Assembly (NCBI RefSeq): GCF_024171925.1 | Contig: NZ_JAMTCO010000011.1 | Span: 62,001-126,000, forward strand | Direction of reading: 5' to 3' | Length of the DNA stretch: 64,000 bases | DNA from: Actinokineospora diospyrosa | GTDB taxonomy: Bacteria; Actinomycetota; Actinomycetes; Mycobacteriales; Pseudonocardiaceae | Part shown: piece after piece, positions 42,352 through 46,827 of the stretch | How the letters are laid out: every line of letters starts with the position of its first letter | Position numbering within the stretch: the stretch's first letter is position 1 | Position numbers and translations under genes: made by a program | Notes under the pieces: generated by a model | Database searches by the model: none | The model's input: the letters and a program-made list of their open reading frames with translations, nothing else | Told to the model about the DNA's origin: nothing

Positions 42352-43011
42352 GTGAGCAGAGGGGCGCGGGGATTCCGCGCGGTTTTGGGGGAGCGGAAAT
42401 GGGCGCAACTACTGGAGTTGGGGTTGCCGCGGGTTCATGGGCCCAAGGTGCCGTTATTGCGCCAAGGCGAACCAGGGACAGCGGTTCTGTTGTTGGTTTC
42501 CGGGCGGGTGAAGGTGTTCGGTACGGAACCGGACGGGGGACGGTTGTTGCTGGCGTTGCGCGGTGCCGGGGACTTGCTCGGGGAGTTGGCGGCGCGGTCG
42601 GCGGAGCGGCGGACCGCGACTGTGGAGACCATTGACCGGTGCAGTGTTCGGGTGGTGCAGGCGGAGCGGCTCAACAGCTTTCTCGCTGAGCAGGACGGGC
42701 AGTCGGCGCTGTTGGAGTACACGATGTCGAAGCTCTCGCAGACAGCGGCCTACCAGGTTGGACTGGTGCACTTCGGACCGGAGCGCAAGATCGCCCGGTT
42801 GCTGCTGGAGGTCGCCGCGCTGGCTGACGACAGCAGTGGTGGGGCCGAGCGGGTGCCGTTCTCGCAACAGGAACTGGCCGACTCGCTCGGTATGGCCCGT
42901 AGCACCGTCGCGAACCACCTGCAGCGGCTCAAGGACAGCGGCGCGCTGCGGCCGGGGCCGCGGCTGGTGATCTCGGACGTCGCCCGCTTGCGCGGCATCG
43001 CCGGACTGTGA
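42352..43011 (+). CDS. Crp/Fnr-family transcriptional regulator
   Basis: 219-residue regulator. The N-terminal cyclic-nucleotide-binding-type beta-barrel (about residues 30-125: QGEPGTAVLLLVSGRVKVFG, GDLLGELAARSAERRTATVE) resembles CAP. A dimer helix and the HTH follow (VPFSQQELADSLGMARSTVANHLQRLKDSGAL). Start GTG 42352 is likely; the frame is open upstream to 42277. It lacks the Cys cluster of Fnr. It lies 90 bases before the cyclase-like gene, with a hairpin in between. Confidence 0.9.
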   Translation: MSRGARGFRAVLGERKWAQLLELGLPRVHGPKVPLLRQGEPGTAVLLLVSGRVKVFGTEPDGGRLLLALRGAGDLLGELAARSAERRTATVETIDRCSVRVVQAERLNSFLAEQDGQSALLEYTMSKLSQTAAYQVGLVHFGPERKIARLLLEVAALADDSSGGAERVPFSQQELADSLGMARSTVANHLQRLKDSGALRPGPRLVISDVARLRGIAGL

Positions 43012-43023
43012 CCCACGTCGCCG

Positions 43024-43051
43024 CGGAACTGTCCGCTGCCGGACAGTTCCG
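43024..43051. terminator. Hairpin between Crp gene and cyclase-like operon
   Basis: Perfect 12-bp inverted repeat CGGAACTGTCCG, loop CTGC, complement. It starts 13 bases after the Crp stop and could end that transcript. It lacks a T-run and lies 50 bases before the operon start, so it could also be an operator. Confidence 0.6.
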
Positions 43052-43100: not shown

Positions 43101-43919
43101 GTGGCGTCGAGGCTGCCGCCGTACCGGGCGTTGCTCGGGGTGGACATCAAGGACTTCAGCGGGGTGGCCGGGCGCCACCACGCCGAGATCACCGAGCGGA
43201 TCGCGGTGGTGTTGGCCACGGCGTTCGAGAAGTGCGGGCTGCGGGCGGTGTGGGACGAGCAGCGCTTCGGCTTCAACACCGGTGACGGGTACCTGGCGGG
43301 CTTCGACACCGATGTGCTGCCGCTGCTGCTCACCCCGTTCCTCGCCTCGCTGCAAGGCGAACTGGACTACCGGGAGCAGGTGCGGGCCGATCCGGTGCCG
43401 TTGCGGATGCGGGTCAGCGTCAACGTCGGGCCGGTGACCGACACCGGCCGCGGGCTGGTCAGCGAGGGCAGCGGGGTCGCGCGGATCGAGACCCACCGGC
43501 TGCTCGACGCGGATCCGGTGCGCGACTTGCTGATCCGCTCCGGCACAGCCACCAGGGTCGCGGCGATCGTGTCCGGCCGCGCCTTCCACGACGCCGTCGC
43601 GAGCGGGTACAGCCGTGAACCGGCCGACCTCTACGTCCCGGCCCCGGTGCGGGTCAAGGCTTTCACCGACGTCGCCTACCTCAGGGTGCCGTCCCCGACC
43701 GGCGACCTGCTGCACCACGGTTTCCTGCCGCACAGCGAGAGCTCAGCGGACACAAAGGACACACACCGCCCGGGCGATGCCGCCATCCACGCGGGCCGCG
43801 ACGTCAACCAGGGGAACACGACCTACACGTTCAACGGGCCCGGCAACGTCAACAACGGTTCCGGCGCCCAGATCAACGGATCGGGCGCCACCTACAACGA
43901 CCACCGCGGATCGCGATGA
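43101..43919 (+). CDS. Nucleotide-cyclase-like protein with C-terminal Asn/Gly amyloid-like motif
   Basis: 272 residues. About residues 10-200 resemble a class III nucleotidyl cyclase domain: LLGVDIKDFSG and NTGDGYLAGF place Asp15 and Asp62 at the two metal positions, with MRVSVNVGPVTD later. The substrate-recognition Lys and the VN-x-AAR signature look altered, so activity is uncertain. Residues 232-268 are a low-complexity Asn/Gly tract (GRDVNQGNTTYTF, then GNVNNGSGAQINGSG) that recurs at the N-terminus of the next protein. GTG start with GAGGAGG upstream. Overlaps the next gene by four bases. Probably an effector or sensor in a conflict system. Confidence 0.75.
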   Translation: MASRLPPYRALLGVDIKDFSGVAGRHHAEITERIAVVLATAFEKCGLRAVWDEQRFGFNTGDGYLAGFDTDVLPLLLTPFLASLQGELDYREQVRADPVPLRMRVSVNVGPVTDTGRGLVSEGSGVARIETHRLLDADPVRDLLIRSGTATRVAAIVSGRAFHDAVASGYSREPADLYVPAPVRVKAFTDVAYLRVPSPTGDLLHHGFLPHSESSADTKDTHRPGDAAIHAGRDVNQGNTTYTFNGPGNVNNGSGAQINGSGATYNDHRGSR

Positions 43920-45784
43920 CGTCGAACTACCAGTTCGAAGAGATCGGGAACGTCAACAACGGCCCCGGTCCGCAGTTCAACCTGCACATCACGCAAGCGA
44001 TGCGGAGGCGGCGAGAACGCCGGTTCATCGCCGCCGAGGAGATCCACCGGCGCGCGCAGCGGTTCGTCGAACCACGCGGCTACCCCTTCGCGGCGTTCAG
44101 CCGGTCGAACACGGCCGTGCTGGCCGGATCGGCCGAGGCGGGTACCCGCACCACCGCGCTGATGCTGCTGACCGAGCGCGGAACGAGGCACGTGGACCAC
44201 CTCCGGGTGCTCGACTACCGGGCCGACGACCGGGAATCAGCCCTCGACACCGCGGAGTTGCGGCCCCAAGACCGGTTGCTGCTCGACCTGTGCGCGGCGG
44301 ACGACAGCAGCGTCGTGGCACTGCGCTCCGAACTGGAGACCTACCAGGCCGCCGTCGGGCAAGCCAGGCTCGTCGTCCTGGTCCGGCCCAACCAGGTCGA
44401 CCTGTTGGCCGATTCGCTTGCCGCACTGCACATCCACGTCGAGCGCCCGGACGGGGCACAGGTACTGCGAGCACACCTGGCCGCGGAGGGCATCACCCCG
44501 CCCGACCCGCTGCTCGCGACAGATCGGTTGGCGCGCTTCCTGCGGTCCGAGTCGACCGGGGGCATAGCCGCCCTGGCCAGGCTGGTCGTCAAGGCCCGCG
44601 ACACCAAGCACGGTGACAACCTGGCGGACTGGCTCACCGAGGCGCTCGCGGCCCAGTCCGAGCGCGCCGCGCAAGCCAGGAAGTTGTTCTCCGGCCAACA
44701 AGGCGCGGCGGACCGGGCACTGCTCACGGTCGCGGCCTTCCTACCGGGCGCGCCAGTCGAGGCACTGGCAACGGCCGAGGCGGTGTTCCACGAGAAGACC
44801 GCGATCCCCGCCGCGCAGCGGCACACCCTCGACGGCGCCCACCTGGCCGAGCGCATGGCCGCGGTGAACCTGCGCGTGGACGGCCACGACCGCGTGGAGT
44901 TCGCCGACCTCGCCCTCGACGGCGCCCTGCGCACCCACTTCTGGACCTACTTCCCGACTTTGCGCGACGGTGTCGCGGCTTGGGTCCAGGAGGTGGCCCC
45001 GTCGGCGGTCCTGCCCTACTCCGCCAAGGCCGAACTGGTGGACCGCTTCGCCGATGTCCAACTCGCGACCGGCCCCGCTGAACCACTGCGGCACCTGGTC
45101 AGGGCCTGGGCCACCGGGGGACATCCGGACCTGGCCGCGCAGGTGTTGGCGATCGGCCTGCGCCACGACGGGCGGTCGAAGGAGTTCCGGCGGTACGTCT
45201 ACGACTGGTCACGTGAGCGCGAGCTGCCGGAGCCGTTGGCCCGCGTCCTCATCGAGGCGTGCGTCGAGGACATCGCGCCCAACCAGCCGCCGCAGGCGCT
45301 CGTGCGACTGCGGCACCTCACCCGGCACAGTCGAACGTCTATTCGGGACACCGCGCTCGACGCGCTCCTGGGCCAGGTGCGGCAGTACGGCTTCCAGCGC
45401 TGGCTGCTCTACCACCTGCGCAAGTACAACTTCACCGAGCACGACCACGCGATCCTGGCCAACCTCGATATCCCGGTCCGCCTTGCGCGGGAGCACCAGG
45501 CGCGCGACAACCTGCTGGAGCTGTGGCGGCAGATGCTCTCGTCCGGCACCCGTGCAGTTCCACAAGAGGGCCTGTGGACGTGGATCGGACGGGATCCAGA
45601 CCTCGTGGTGCGCGCTTGCGACGGGAACCCGGACCTGCTGAACCAACTCTTCGTGTTCACCCGGGAACGGGTGCGCCACGCCATCGACCCCGAGGAGCTG
45701 CGGGTGGCACACGACCGCGCCGGGGAACTGCTGCGCCACATCGACGCGGCACCGCACGTGACAACGCCGGAAGGACAAGGATGA
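43916..45784 (+). CDS. Degenerate STAND/NLR-like NTPase with N-terminal amyloid-like motif
   Basis: 622 residues. Residues 5-25 carry QFEEIGNVNNGPGPQFNLHI, matching the preceding protein's tail. A P-loop-like GSAEAGTRTT (71-80) lacks the usual Lys, and DRLLLDLCAADD (about 116-127) resembles Walker B. The rest is helical, with repeats resembling ARM/HEAT or winged-helix STAND arms (ALVRLRHLTRHSRTSIRDTALDALL). No TM segments. The arrangement (short N-terminal motif, NTPase, helical sensor) matches bacterial NLR-like proteins in outline. ATGA overlaps occur at both ends. ATP binding is doubtful from sequence alone. Confidence 0.7.
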   Translation: MTSNYQFEEIGNVNNGPGPQFNLHITQAMRRRRERRFIAAEEIHRRAQRFVEPRGYPFAAFSRSNTAVLAGSAEAGTRTTALMLLTERGTRHVDHLRVLDYRADDRESALDTAELRPQDRLLLDLCAADDSSVVALRSELETYQAAVGQARLVVLVRPNQVDLLADSLAALHIHVERPDGAQVLRAHLAAEGITPPDPLLATDRLARFLRSESTGGIAALARLVVKARDTKHGDNLADWLTEALAAQSERAAQARKLFSGQQGAADRALLTVAAFLPGAPVEALATAEAVFHEKTAIPAAQRHTLDGAHLAERMAAVNLRVDGHDRVEFADLALDGALRTHFWTYFPTLRDGVAAWVQEVAPSAVLPYSAKAELVDRFADVQLATGPAEPLRHLVRAWATGGHPDLAAQVLAIGLRHDGRSKEFRRYVYDWSRERELPEPLARVLIEACVEDIAPNQPPQALVRLRHLTRHSRTSIRDTALDALLGQVRQYGFQRWLLYHLRKYNFTEHDHAILANLDIPVRLAREHQARDNLLELWRQMLSSGTRAVPQEGLWTWIGRDPDLVVRACDGNPDLLNQLFVFTRERVRHAIDPEELRVAHDRAGELLRHIDAAPHVTTPEGQG

Positions 45785-46827
45785 CCAGGGACATGCGAGT
45801 AGTCATCGCCGCCGTGGCGGCGGTGATGGTGCCATTCGTGGTCGGCGCGATCTTCAAGTGGGACGGCTGGATCACCGCCGTGGTCATCGCCGTGCTGCTC
45901 GGCGCGGTCGCGGTGGTGGCGCCGCAGGTCTCCCCCACGGCCGCCCGGCTGCGCGGCCGCCCACTCGGGGACCGGCGGTTCCCGGAACCGGTCGTCGTGC
46001 CCCCACCCGCCCCGGCTCCCCCGCCGCCGGGGGCGCGCACGCTGACCTCGGTGCGGCTGCCGAGCGCGATCGAGGACATCCCGTTCACCCTCACCTGCAC
46101 CGTGCGCTGGTACCCGCGGGGGCAGGGACACCCGGACCCCGGCGCGCTCGCGGTCCAGTCGGTGATCAGCCGGGCCCGGCAGCTGACCCACCTGCACCAC
46201 CCGCAGGACAGCGGCGCGGTCCACGCCCTGGCCGCGGAGCTCAGCACCCCCGGCACCGACAGCGGGAACGCGGTGCAGGCCTGGGCGACCGAGGTGAACC
46301 TGACCGTCGGTGAGGAGCACGACTCCTACCTGCGGAACCGGCTGCGGCTGGGCAGGCAGCGGCAACTCGCCCAACTGGAGATCGACAACGAGCGGTTCCT
46401 CCGCGGCTACCTGACCGAAGAGGTGCTCACCAGCGCCGGGAGCACCGTGGTGTGGTGGCTGGCGAAGGACTCGACCAAGGTCCGGGAGACCGTCGACCTG
46501 ATCGGCCCACTCGCCCAGCTGTCGGCAGCGGCCAACGACCGGGAGGTCGACCGGGCGTTCCGGGCGCTGGTCCCCGGCAGCACCTGGTCGGACAACGGCC
46601 ACAGCCTGTTCGTCGTCGACAGCCCCACCACCAACGGGCAAGACGCGCCGGACCTGCTCCCCGACCCGGATGACGACAACCACGCGCTGTTCGGCCGCGA
46701 CCTGGTGATCTTGCTGGACCGGCACGGCCACAGCGACCTGGCAGCCAAGGCCAGGCAGCGGTACGGGGTGGACGACTGGTCGGCCGCCGGTGCGGAACCC
46801 GTGGAACAACCGGGGCCGGAGGACTAG
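45781..46827 (+). CDS. Two-TM membrane protein, third gene of the NLR-like operon
   Basis: 348 residues. Two hydrophobic helices at about 7-25 and 30-47 (VVIAAVAAVMVPFVVGAIF, ITAVVIAVLLGAVAVVA) form a hairpin, then a Pro-rich linker (VVVPPPAPAPPPPG) and a soluble domain. The domain contains FTLTCTVRWYPRG and a helical region, and may be stomatin/SPFH-like, but no firm family is seen. ATG overlaps the NTPase stop (ATGA) with GGAAGGACAAGG upstream. It could be the membrane-acting effector or a membrane anchor for the complex (inference). Its end overlaps the convergent sunset gene by four bases. Confidence 0.7.
   Translation: MTRDMRVVIAAVAAVMVPFVVGAIFKWDGWITAVVIAVLLGAVAVVAPQVSPTAARLRGRPLGDRRFPEPVVVPPPAPAPPPPGARTLTSVRLPSAIEDIPFTLTCTVRWYPRGQGHPDPGALAVQSVISRARQLTHLHHPQDSGAVHALAAELSTPGTDSGNAVQAWATEVNLTVGEEHDSYLRNRLRLGRQRQLAQLEIDNERFLRGYLTEEVLTSAGSTVVWWLAKDSTKVRETVDLIGPLAQLSAAANDREVDRAFRALVPGSTWSDNGHSLFVVDSPTTNGQDAPDLLPDPDDDNHALFGRDLVILLDRHGHSDLAAKARQRYGVDDWSAAGAEPVEQPGPED

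Follow-up and report, generated by a model that had tools for sequence, protein, structure and literature searches.

Do two adjacent proteins that carry a similar short, Asn/Gly-rich motif at their facing ends function as the receptor and effector of an amyloid-type signaling pair, and what would be the output of such a pair? This question is raised by an operon of Actinokineospora diospyrosa found in a stretch of 64,000 nt (here termed the window; assembly GCF_024171925.1, contig NZ_JAMTCO010000011.1, positions 62,001-126,000, forward strand). The features of the locus are listed in window coordinates with their strand and, in parentheses, the basis of assignment or a qualification.

42352-43011, plus strand: Crp/Fnr-type transcription factor with a cyclic-nucleotide-binding domain (start codon uncertain; frame open from 42277)
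43030-43045, unstranded: palindrome TGTCCGctgcCGGACA, putative Crp operator (core of CGGAACTGTCCG-CTGC-CGGACAGTTCCG)
43101-43919, plus strand: nucleotidyl-cyclase-like effector, 272 aa (profile-profile match, invariant residues, Foldseek)
43818-43877, plus strand: paired motif, effector side, TTYTFNGPGNVNNGSGAQIN, residues 240-259 (local alignment, pattern scan)
43916-45784, plus strand: STAND/NLR-like receptor, 622 aa (gene start overlapping the cyclase gene by ATGA; nSTAND3 in relatives)
43922-43981, plus strand: paired motif, receptor side, SNYQFEEIGNVNNGPGPQFN, residues 3-22 (local alignment, pattern scan)
44126-44152, plus strand: altered P-loop GSAEAGTRT, receptor residues 71-79 (alignment of 76 sequences)
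45781-46827, plus strand: downstream gene, 348 aa, N-terminus hydrophobic by eye (ATGA overlap with the receptor gene)

A sequence-only reading had placed a paired Asn/Gly motif in the adjacent proteins at 43842..43982, and this was found exactly at the residues given, with GNVNNGSGAQINGSG forming residues 248-262 of the cyclase-like protein and FEEIGNVNNGPGPQFN residues 7-22 of the receptor. As also claimed, GNVNNG-x-G-x-Q is identical in both ends and followed by a hydrophobic residue (I or F) and N, such that GNVNNGxGxQ[I/F]N is common to the C-terminal end of the cyclase-like protein and the N-terminal end of the receptor, and the two genes overlap by four bases (ATGA). By local alignment, the top match was between TTYTFNGPGNVNNGSGAQIN and SNYQFEEIGNVNNGPGPQFN with a score of 57, compared to a mean of 22.6 and a maximum of 47 for 20,000 shuffles of the tail (0/20,000 reached 57). 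The same alignment was the top match among windows tiled over both proteins. When the 64-kb window was scanned in six frames, the pattern G[STP]G.Q[IFVYL]N was detected at these two places only. Chance similarity of the two ends is ruled out by the shuffles and by the pairing found across family operons.

Pairing was analyzed in 62 cyclase-receptor loci of the bacterial family, chosen by eye among the matches listed of the cyclase and receptor searches. Receptor starts were set by a rule favoring the 4-base overlap, and three loci were dropped before the test (L125 and L126, with an unreadable receptor N-terminus, and L120, with no start found), leaving 59 operons with that of the window included. 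Paired motifs had been anticipated in homologous operons, and the tail and N-terminus of the same operon were found to match at p≤0.01 in 54/59. For the converse case, a motif in one partner alone, the nearest test was this same within-operon pairing, which five of the 59 operons failed at p≤0.01; with a longer N-terminus, L128 passed (p 0.002) and L129 and L096 were near 0.05. The motifs vary between operons and agree inside each operon. For 19 operons thinned to <60% cyclase identity, the own-pair mean was 69 compared to 32.7 (sd 3.1) for re-paired ends, and 0/20,000 re-paired sets were as high as the own-pair mean. Among operons more closely related (60-75% cyclase identity), the own-minus-crossed contrast was >0 in 97% of 282 operon pairs. 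The paired segments had a median length of 25 aa (range 14-55, n=55) and were enriched in Gly and Asn, with little Glu or Leu.

A second sample of 29 loci, for which ends of 110 residues were compared (the family test used at most 60 residues of the receptor), gave an own mean of 68.7 compared to 39.1 (sd 2.8) when re-paired. Outside the family, ends matched in 10/10 cyclase pairs (11/11 counting L155, a family locus seen before) and in 9/11 TIR pairs. Seven of the 29 loci were given no effector class in the pairing test; a looser look had named four of these, three as TIR and one as cyclase. The facing ends of the two proteins are paired and co-diverge, and their genes are linked. In dozens of species the two tags have evolved in concert, which suggests the receptor switches the enzyme on by means of the tags.

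Receptors without a cyclase were found to have as partner mostly a TIR protein with such a tail. Of the family receptor loci with no adjacent cyclase match, 16 were taken in and several dozen further matches were left out; TIR was found by pattern in 13 of the 16, and the ends matched at p≤0.01 in 9/13 of these TIR pairs (4/13 failed). The TIR label needs three changes on the receptor tree, with at least two forced. This exchange of the cyclase for a similarly tailed TIR protein is consistent with a general receptor-to-effector plug. By look, L138 and L145, which also are family loci without a cyclase, were TIR-like. The partner in L144 is a different protein, which we take to be a Bell-like helical protein and the only one of this kind in these loci.

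Judged by its sequence, the product of 43101-43919 is a divergent class III nucleotidyl-cyclase-like protein. Profile-profile comparison with class III cyclases gave an E of 4.3e-5 (probability 69%), and D15, G61, D62 and R133 were invariant in 37 aligned sequences. D15 and D62 align with both metal-binding Asp residues of PF00211 members, as required of class III enzymes. In class III cyclases, an Arg and an Asn have transition-state roles; R133, conserved in 37/37, aligns with this Arg, and the position of the Asn is occupied by Ile129 in the profile alignment. Pfam PF00211 was matched at E≤0.1 by 0/37 of the cyclase-like sequences, and the window protein matched no Pfam family at E≤1. With the transition-state Asn lost and no match to PF00211, the cyclase may be inactive or make another product. 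A sequence search of solved structures with the cyclase profile detected weak cyclase matches (best E 0.026). Foldseek ranks 1-39 of a low-confidence effector model (mean pLDDT 44, 5 input sequences) were nucleotidyl cyclases throughout, and these fold matches are taken as supporting only because the TM-score by query was ≤0.35 and one E-value was <0.001. Rank 11 was the uridylate cyclase 8jsz. In Pycsar-type defence, a class III-like cyclase is proposed to make a cyclic nucleotide, and the operon resembles Pycsar in its class III-like cyclase and in the match to 8jsz. It differs in that the cyclase is linked to a receptor and Crp, and in that the three operon proteins tested had no match among known defence-system models (PADLOC, E≤0.01), Pycsar included; PHROGs likewise gave no match. 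A cyclase match was present in 214/390 genomes and a receptor match in 102, and cyclase relatives without this receptor were common.

The Crp-type factor has both a cNMP-binding domain (PF00027, E 3.9e-15) and a Crp HTH domain (HTH_Crp_2, E 8.1e-15). By use of a profile built from the same 62 loci, a Crp homologue was detected in 62/62 family cyclase loci compared to 0/16 loci without a cyclase; it was directly upstream in the same direction in 58 of the loci and divergent in 4. Outside the family, Crp was found in 9/10 cyclase loci with upstream DNA versus 0/9 others. Residues G102, E103, R112 and A114 of the phosphate-binding cassette are kept in 98-100% of the 62 homologues. TGTCC-N6-GGACA was exact in 39/58 crp-cyclase intergenic regions and present at ≤1 mismatch in 49, compared to a shuffled mean of 0.165 and maximum of 2, and elsewhere in the same loci two exact copies were found in 574,552 bp. 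The exact palindrome was seen outside the family in 3/11 cyclase loci only, and TGTCCGNNNNCGGACA has a single occurrence in the 8,110,824-bp genome. The metal-binding residues of the cyclase, the Crp pocket and the palindrome are all conserved, and the palindrome at 43030-43045 is a putative Crp operator. A terminator was considered for the palindrome and rejected, as it was absent from the output of a terminator scan and its sequence, not pairing alone, is conserved.

The receptor family includes STAND matches, with nSTAND3 (PF20720) detected at E≤0.1 in 28/38 aligned members (best 1e-6); the window receptor itself matched no Pfam family at E≤1 and thus no STAND model. The P-loop of the family has the consensus GxxGxGRRT; most of 76 sequences lack the usual Lys, for which Arg is the main substitute, and Walker A (GxxxxGK[ST]) was accordingly absent from most of these. 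This replacement renders NTP-driven switching doubtful. Searched against the sequences of solved structures, the receptor profile matched one engineered protein of helical repeats (E 0.00028, with none of the individual stretches significant) and nothing further below E 0.05. The receptor and enzyme are likely a danger receptor and a signal-making enzyme.

The operon had been read as a BASS-type, RHIM-like pair. The cyclase-like nature of the effector, and the place of Crp and the palindrome in the unit, go beyond that reading. The layout claimed in it is strongly supported, with a similar short motif at the effector C-terminus and the adjacent STAND/NLR-like N-terminus, overlapping genes, and a median motif length within ~20-40 residues. 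The RHIM part fell away: RHIM was not among the 24 Pfam families matching 122 ends at E≤5, and RHIM membership was dropped. In length and Gly/Asn-rich composition, the segments resemble published amyloid signaling motifs, described in PMC8086366 as 20-40 aa long. PMC7889193, PMC8086366 and PMC9815663 describe for BASS/Bell-NLR systems the same adjacent or overlapping genes, effector C-terminal and NLR N-terminal motifs of 20-40 aa, actinobacteria and several motif families, and mention TIR effectors. This likeness is one of layout and length, and with respect to BASS1-10 the motif may be new or a variant of a described class. The usual BASS effector has a Bell domain (CHAT and TIR are also reported), whereas the effector of the window is cyclase-like with Crp, and the receptor is nSTAND3-like with an altered P-loop. 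A GSGxQ[F/I]N core is common to the motifs and fungal sigma (NACHT_sigma, PF17106), which was matched weakly by 5/122 ends at E≤5 (best 0.0013); in the L088 cyclase tail, a HTGSGDQFNAPLG stretch aligned with sigma profile positions 6-18 at 17.9 bits versus a cut-off of 27.6. The sigma profile had 0 matches in the operon's own genome, none for the window proteins, and matched 3/14 control genomes at E≤10. With the score below cut-off, the own genome empty and controls matching, this is a resemblance only and sigma membership is rejected. The EAD and iSTAND systems, as portrayed by Kaur et al. (2020, 2021), are similar in having a matching adaptor on a STAND-type protein and an adjacent effector, cNMP cyclase and TIR effectors, and a CRP-like factor beside some systems, but have folded domains where a short low-complexity segment is present here. 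The iSTAND comparison covers adaptor, effectors and CRP-like factor; ternary iSTAND/VMAP operons also have a core of MoxR ATPase and vWA protein. Among the titles and abstract openings listed from the literature, none described an amyloid NLR pair that has a cyclase as its effector together with Crp, and an earlier description is possible.

On balance, we favor the operon as an NLR/amyloid-type receptor-effector switch with a cyclase effector and an output that includes transcription through Crp. Class III cyclase domains work as dimers. For the switch we infer an amyloid state, templating, catalysis, a product, Crp binding, sensing and a direction of signal as follows. The nSTAND3-like receptor would sense a cue and oligomerise, exposing its N-terminal Gly/Asn-rich motif of ~20-25 residues, which would template the matching C-terminal motif of the cyclase-like effector. 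With the effector tails templated, the cyclase domains would be gathered and thereby made active. The cyclic nucleotide would be read by the neighboring Crp-type factor, which may bind the palindrome between crp and the cyclase-receptor genes and so exert feedback on the transcription of these genes, and perhaps also act on further responses. A bolder version, which we hold as possible but tentative, is that a prion-like event acting through a clustered cyclase, a dedicated Crp and a single-copy palindrome on the same operon forms a self-limiting or self-amplifying transcriptional switch, with a fast-diverging motif code that insulates parallel pathways and a receptor that can be re-plugged to TIR.

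The paired ends could instead be a non-amyloid homotypic adaptor, with one-to-one docking that recruits the effector without a self-propagating fibre. Pairing, co-divergence and effector exchange are equally expected from such an adaptor, and the same coupling principle operates via folded EADs, of which adjacent copies are most alike (PMC7159879). Most EADs are described there as helical domains, however, unlike the short Gly/Asn-rich segments found here, and their GSGxQxN core is reminiscent of fungal sigma, though below cut-off; we regard docking of this type as rather unlikely. Far less probable is that gene conversion, or copying that recurs between the two nearby gene ends, maintains the similarity, which would then have little functional meaning. 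Identical residues of the paired ends do share codons above the prediction from pooled codon usage (codons differ in 313/918 versus 451 expected), but one third of the codons still differ, usage pooled over many genomes inflates the expected difference, and the match sits at facing ends of unrelated proteins, TIR partners included.

A further alternative concerns the output, as the cyclase-like protein could be a catalytically dead scaffold with Crp regulating the operon in response to a different ligand. The altered active site (Asn lost) and the lack of a Pfam cyclase match are consistent with this, and inactive cyclase domains are noted in conflict systems in PMC7159879. Both metal-binding Asp residues and the Arg are nonetheless invariant in 37/37, and Crp with its conserved phosphate-binding cassette goes with the cyclase and not with the TIR versions; we regard a dead scaffold as unlikely.

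Fungal amyloid signalosomes control cell death, and those of bacteria are supposed to act likewise via membrane-targeting effectors, with the bacterial role presented as still open in PMC7889193. If the amyloid-type switch is correct, a cyclase effector that has a Crp of its own and one operator would provide measurable outputs (cyclic nucleotide and promoter), by which NLR-amyloid signaling in bacteria could be tested directly, in a soil actinomycete. For tests of specificity, the 54 matching pairs already supply both cognate and non-cognate motifs. The 348-aa protein encoded downstream of the receptor had no Pfam match; within the bacterial family, a homologue of its gene was found 3' of 59/62 cyclase loci compared to 7/16 loci without a cyclase.

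The window lies in a genome of 8.11 Mb, and the closest named relatives of its receptor are from Actinokineospora species. A paired Asn/Gly motif in overlapping adjacent genes had been claimed by the sequence-only reading, and both the letters and the coordinates were found to be exact.

Features of the operon in the window
Upstream of the cyclase gene, end at 43011: Crp/Fnr-type gene
Core 43030-43045: long palindrome between the Crp/Fnr-type gene and the cyclase gene
43101-43919: first protein (cyclase-like), 272 aa, Gly/Asn-rich tail at the C-terminus
43916-45784: second protein (receptor), 622 aa, starts with the motif of the first protein; ATGA gene overlap
45781-46827: third gene, start again within an ATGA overlap

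The two ends of the window pair scored 57, a value reached by 0 of 20,000 tail shuffles (maximum 47). Relatives of protein 1 and protein 2 were detected in 214 and 102, respectively, of 390 genomes of the family, and 62 loci with both relatives listed adjacent were taken together with 16 receptor loci without a cyclase. Among the 59 loci with readable ends, including the window operon, the receptor N-terminus matched the tail of its own partner at p≤0.01 in 54. The motif sequence differs widely across operons, yet both copies agree inside one operon (e.g., GPGYVHGGTGDQYNG/GPGFVHGGTGDQHNH in L072 and TMNFSGASGTFVGVNQNSTNHGKQNY/TMDFSSASGMFSGINQNSPNHGTQNY in L121, two family loci). For 19 thinned operons, the own-pair mean was 69 compared to 32.7 (sd 3.1) when tails were re-paired with receptor ends of other operons and was reached in none of 20,000 re-pairings. 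With growing likeness of the operons, the own-minus-crossed contrast dropped, being above zero in 97% of the 282 pairs of operons with 60-75% cyclase identity, 73% of the 26 with 75-90% and 50% of the 8 with >90%. The own tail ranked first among all tails in 28 of 59 operons and in 51 of 59 once relatives at ≥60% were left out. No own-pair match at p≤0.01 was detected for L096, L107, L123, L128 and L129. With longer N-termini, L128 passed (p 0.002), L129, L096 and L107 came near 0.05 (the L107 match falling outside any motif of the paired kind), and L123 still failed. Codons of identical residues differed at 313 of 918 positions compared to 451 expected from pooled usage; since such residues share codons somewhat above this prediction, copying between both genes may contribute to maintaining the similarity of the ends.

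A receptor-profile search of 394 class genomes gave a match in 57. Of 29 loci read from this sample, 22 were assigned, with a cyclase partner in 11 and a TIR partner in 11. All 11 cyclase partners matched at p≤0.01 (10 of 10 without L155, which is the family locus L121 over again), as did 9 of the 11 TIR partners. A common segment of a different kind, GQVVQAG-like, was found in L172-L175 and L177. Since an excerpt of PMC9815663 places the letters ARD in BASS2, this segment may be related to BASS2, and two or more motif classes therefore seem to serve one receptor-cyclase module.

Because the ends co-diverge, an interaction of the cyclase tail with the receptor N-terminus is strongly implied. 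The ends may interact as amyloid, as suggested by their layout, length and composition and by their likeness to motifs already published (PMC7889193, PMC8086366; in part). The chief rival is that they form a non-amyloid homotypic adaptor, a coupling described for effector-associated domains (PMC7159879, in excerpt), and this fits the sequence data equally well. In the most likely mechanism, the STAND-type receptor would signal danger to the cyclase effector via the matching ends, the effector would produce a cyclic nucleotide, and Crp would sense this nucleotide and then act on the operon. Bacterial amyloid-signalling pairs have the same arrangement as the cyclase-receptor operon; their effectors are mostly Bell, less often CHAT or TIR (PMC7889193, in part). 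A literature search covering titles and abstract openings gave no description of cyclase effectors with Crp in such pairs. Kaur et al. described cNMP cyclases of STAND systems that are fused to adaptors, as well as a CRP-like factor adjoining some conflict genes (PMC8195603, PMC7159879; excerpts).

The protein encoded upstream of the cyclase gene belongs to the Crp/Fnr factors and carries a cNMP-binding domain. An HMM built from the cyclase loci themselves detected a Crp homologue in 62 of 62 of them (58 directly upstream and co-directional, 4 divergent) and in 0 of 16 family receptor loci without a cyclase. Outside the family, Crp was present in 9 of the 10 cyclase loci whose upstream DNA was available (L187 has none, and L179 stops at a contig end) and in 0 of 9 others. 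Of 58 intergenic regions between crp and cyclase, 39 contain TGTCC-N6-GGACA exactly and 49 with ≤1 mismatch, compared to 2 exact copies elsewhere in the same loci (574,552 bp); TGTCCGNNNNCGGACA occurs once in the genome of the window, at the crp-cyclase palindrome. Beyond the family, 3 of 11 cyclase loci and none of 9 others contained the exact palindrome; when one mismatch was allowed at any position of the stretch, copies were found in 7 of the 11 and 1 of the 9. The simplest reading is that the palindrome is a putative operator of the adjacent Crp, controlling the operon itself. The downstream gene (45781-46827) is conserved and encodes a protein that matches no family and whose N-terminus is hydrophobic; 59 of 62 cyclase loci have a homologue, as do 7 of the 16 receptor loci without a cyclase.

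In 15 of these 16 loci a TIR protein was read directly upstream, and Pfam TIR_2 was confirmed in all four proteins scanned (L065, L066, L133, L135). The upstream neighbour in the remaining locus, L144, is a small helical protein without a family match, presumably Bell-like. Of 13 family TIR tails tested, 9 matched the receptor ends. Since a quick tree of 97 receptors needs few label changes (3 for TIR, 2 of them forced by well-supported branches, and 4 for all effectors), effector exchange has occurred, but rarely, whereas the motif changes fast. Upstream of the TIR genes of L065 and L066, the position taken by Crp in cyclase operons is occupied by a helix-turn-helix regulator (by eye), and therefore each effector may be accompanied by a regulator type of its own. 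In Streptomyces avicenniae (L066:4156-4992), the TIR tail has a run of tandem GTQVN-like repeats beside its GSGTQVN motif.

nSTAND3 matched 28 of 38 receptor family members at E≤0.1 (best 1e-6); the window receptor itself had no nSTAND3 match. Most of 76 receptors carry GxxGxGRRT as their P-loop (aligned with residues 71-79 of the window receptor), with the Lys replaced, mostly by Arg; Gly76 is invariant in the aligned receptors.

Protein 1 had no match in Pfam, NCBIfam, PADLOC or PHROGs. Its family profile matched 19 class III cyclases at E 4.3e-5 and 69% probability, compared to 0.3% for the receptor profile as control. D15, G61-D62 and R133, invariant in 37 of 37, align on the class III metal Asp pair and Arg; the class III Asn is absent at the aligned position. 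An AlphaFold2 model was poor (mean pLDDT 44), and its top 39 Foldseek matches were all nucleotidyl cyclases (TM-score by query ≤0.35). Because the active site is altered, catalysis is uncertain. In 27 of 59 cyclase tails (L068-L129), but only 6 of 59 receptor N-termini, a further segment was observed whose core is V/I/L-Q-x-G/R-like (e.g., LQIG, VVQAR); it may pair with another receptor. A second cyclase relative in the genome of the window (contig 1, L131:5076-5237) has a C-terminal GTAIQVGHLHGGL, whose core looks RHIM-like by eye; within the 10-kb stretch, no receptor relative was found. A third (contig 5, L130), without a motif tail by eye or a receptor relative in the stretch examined, lies ~2.3 kb from a Crp relative.
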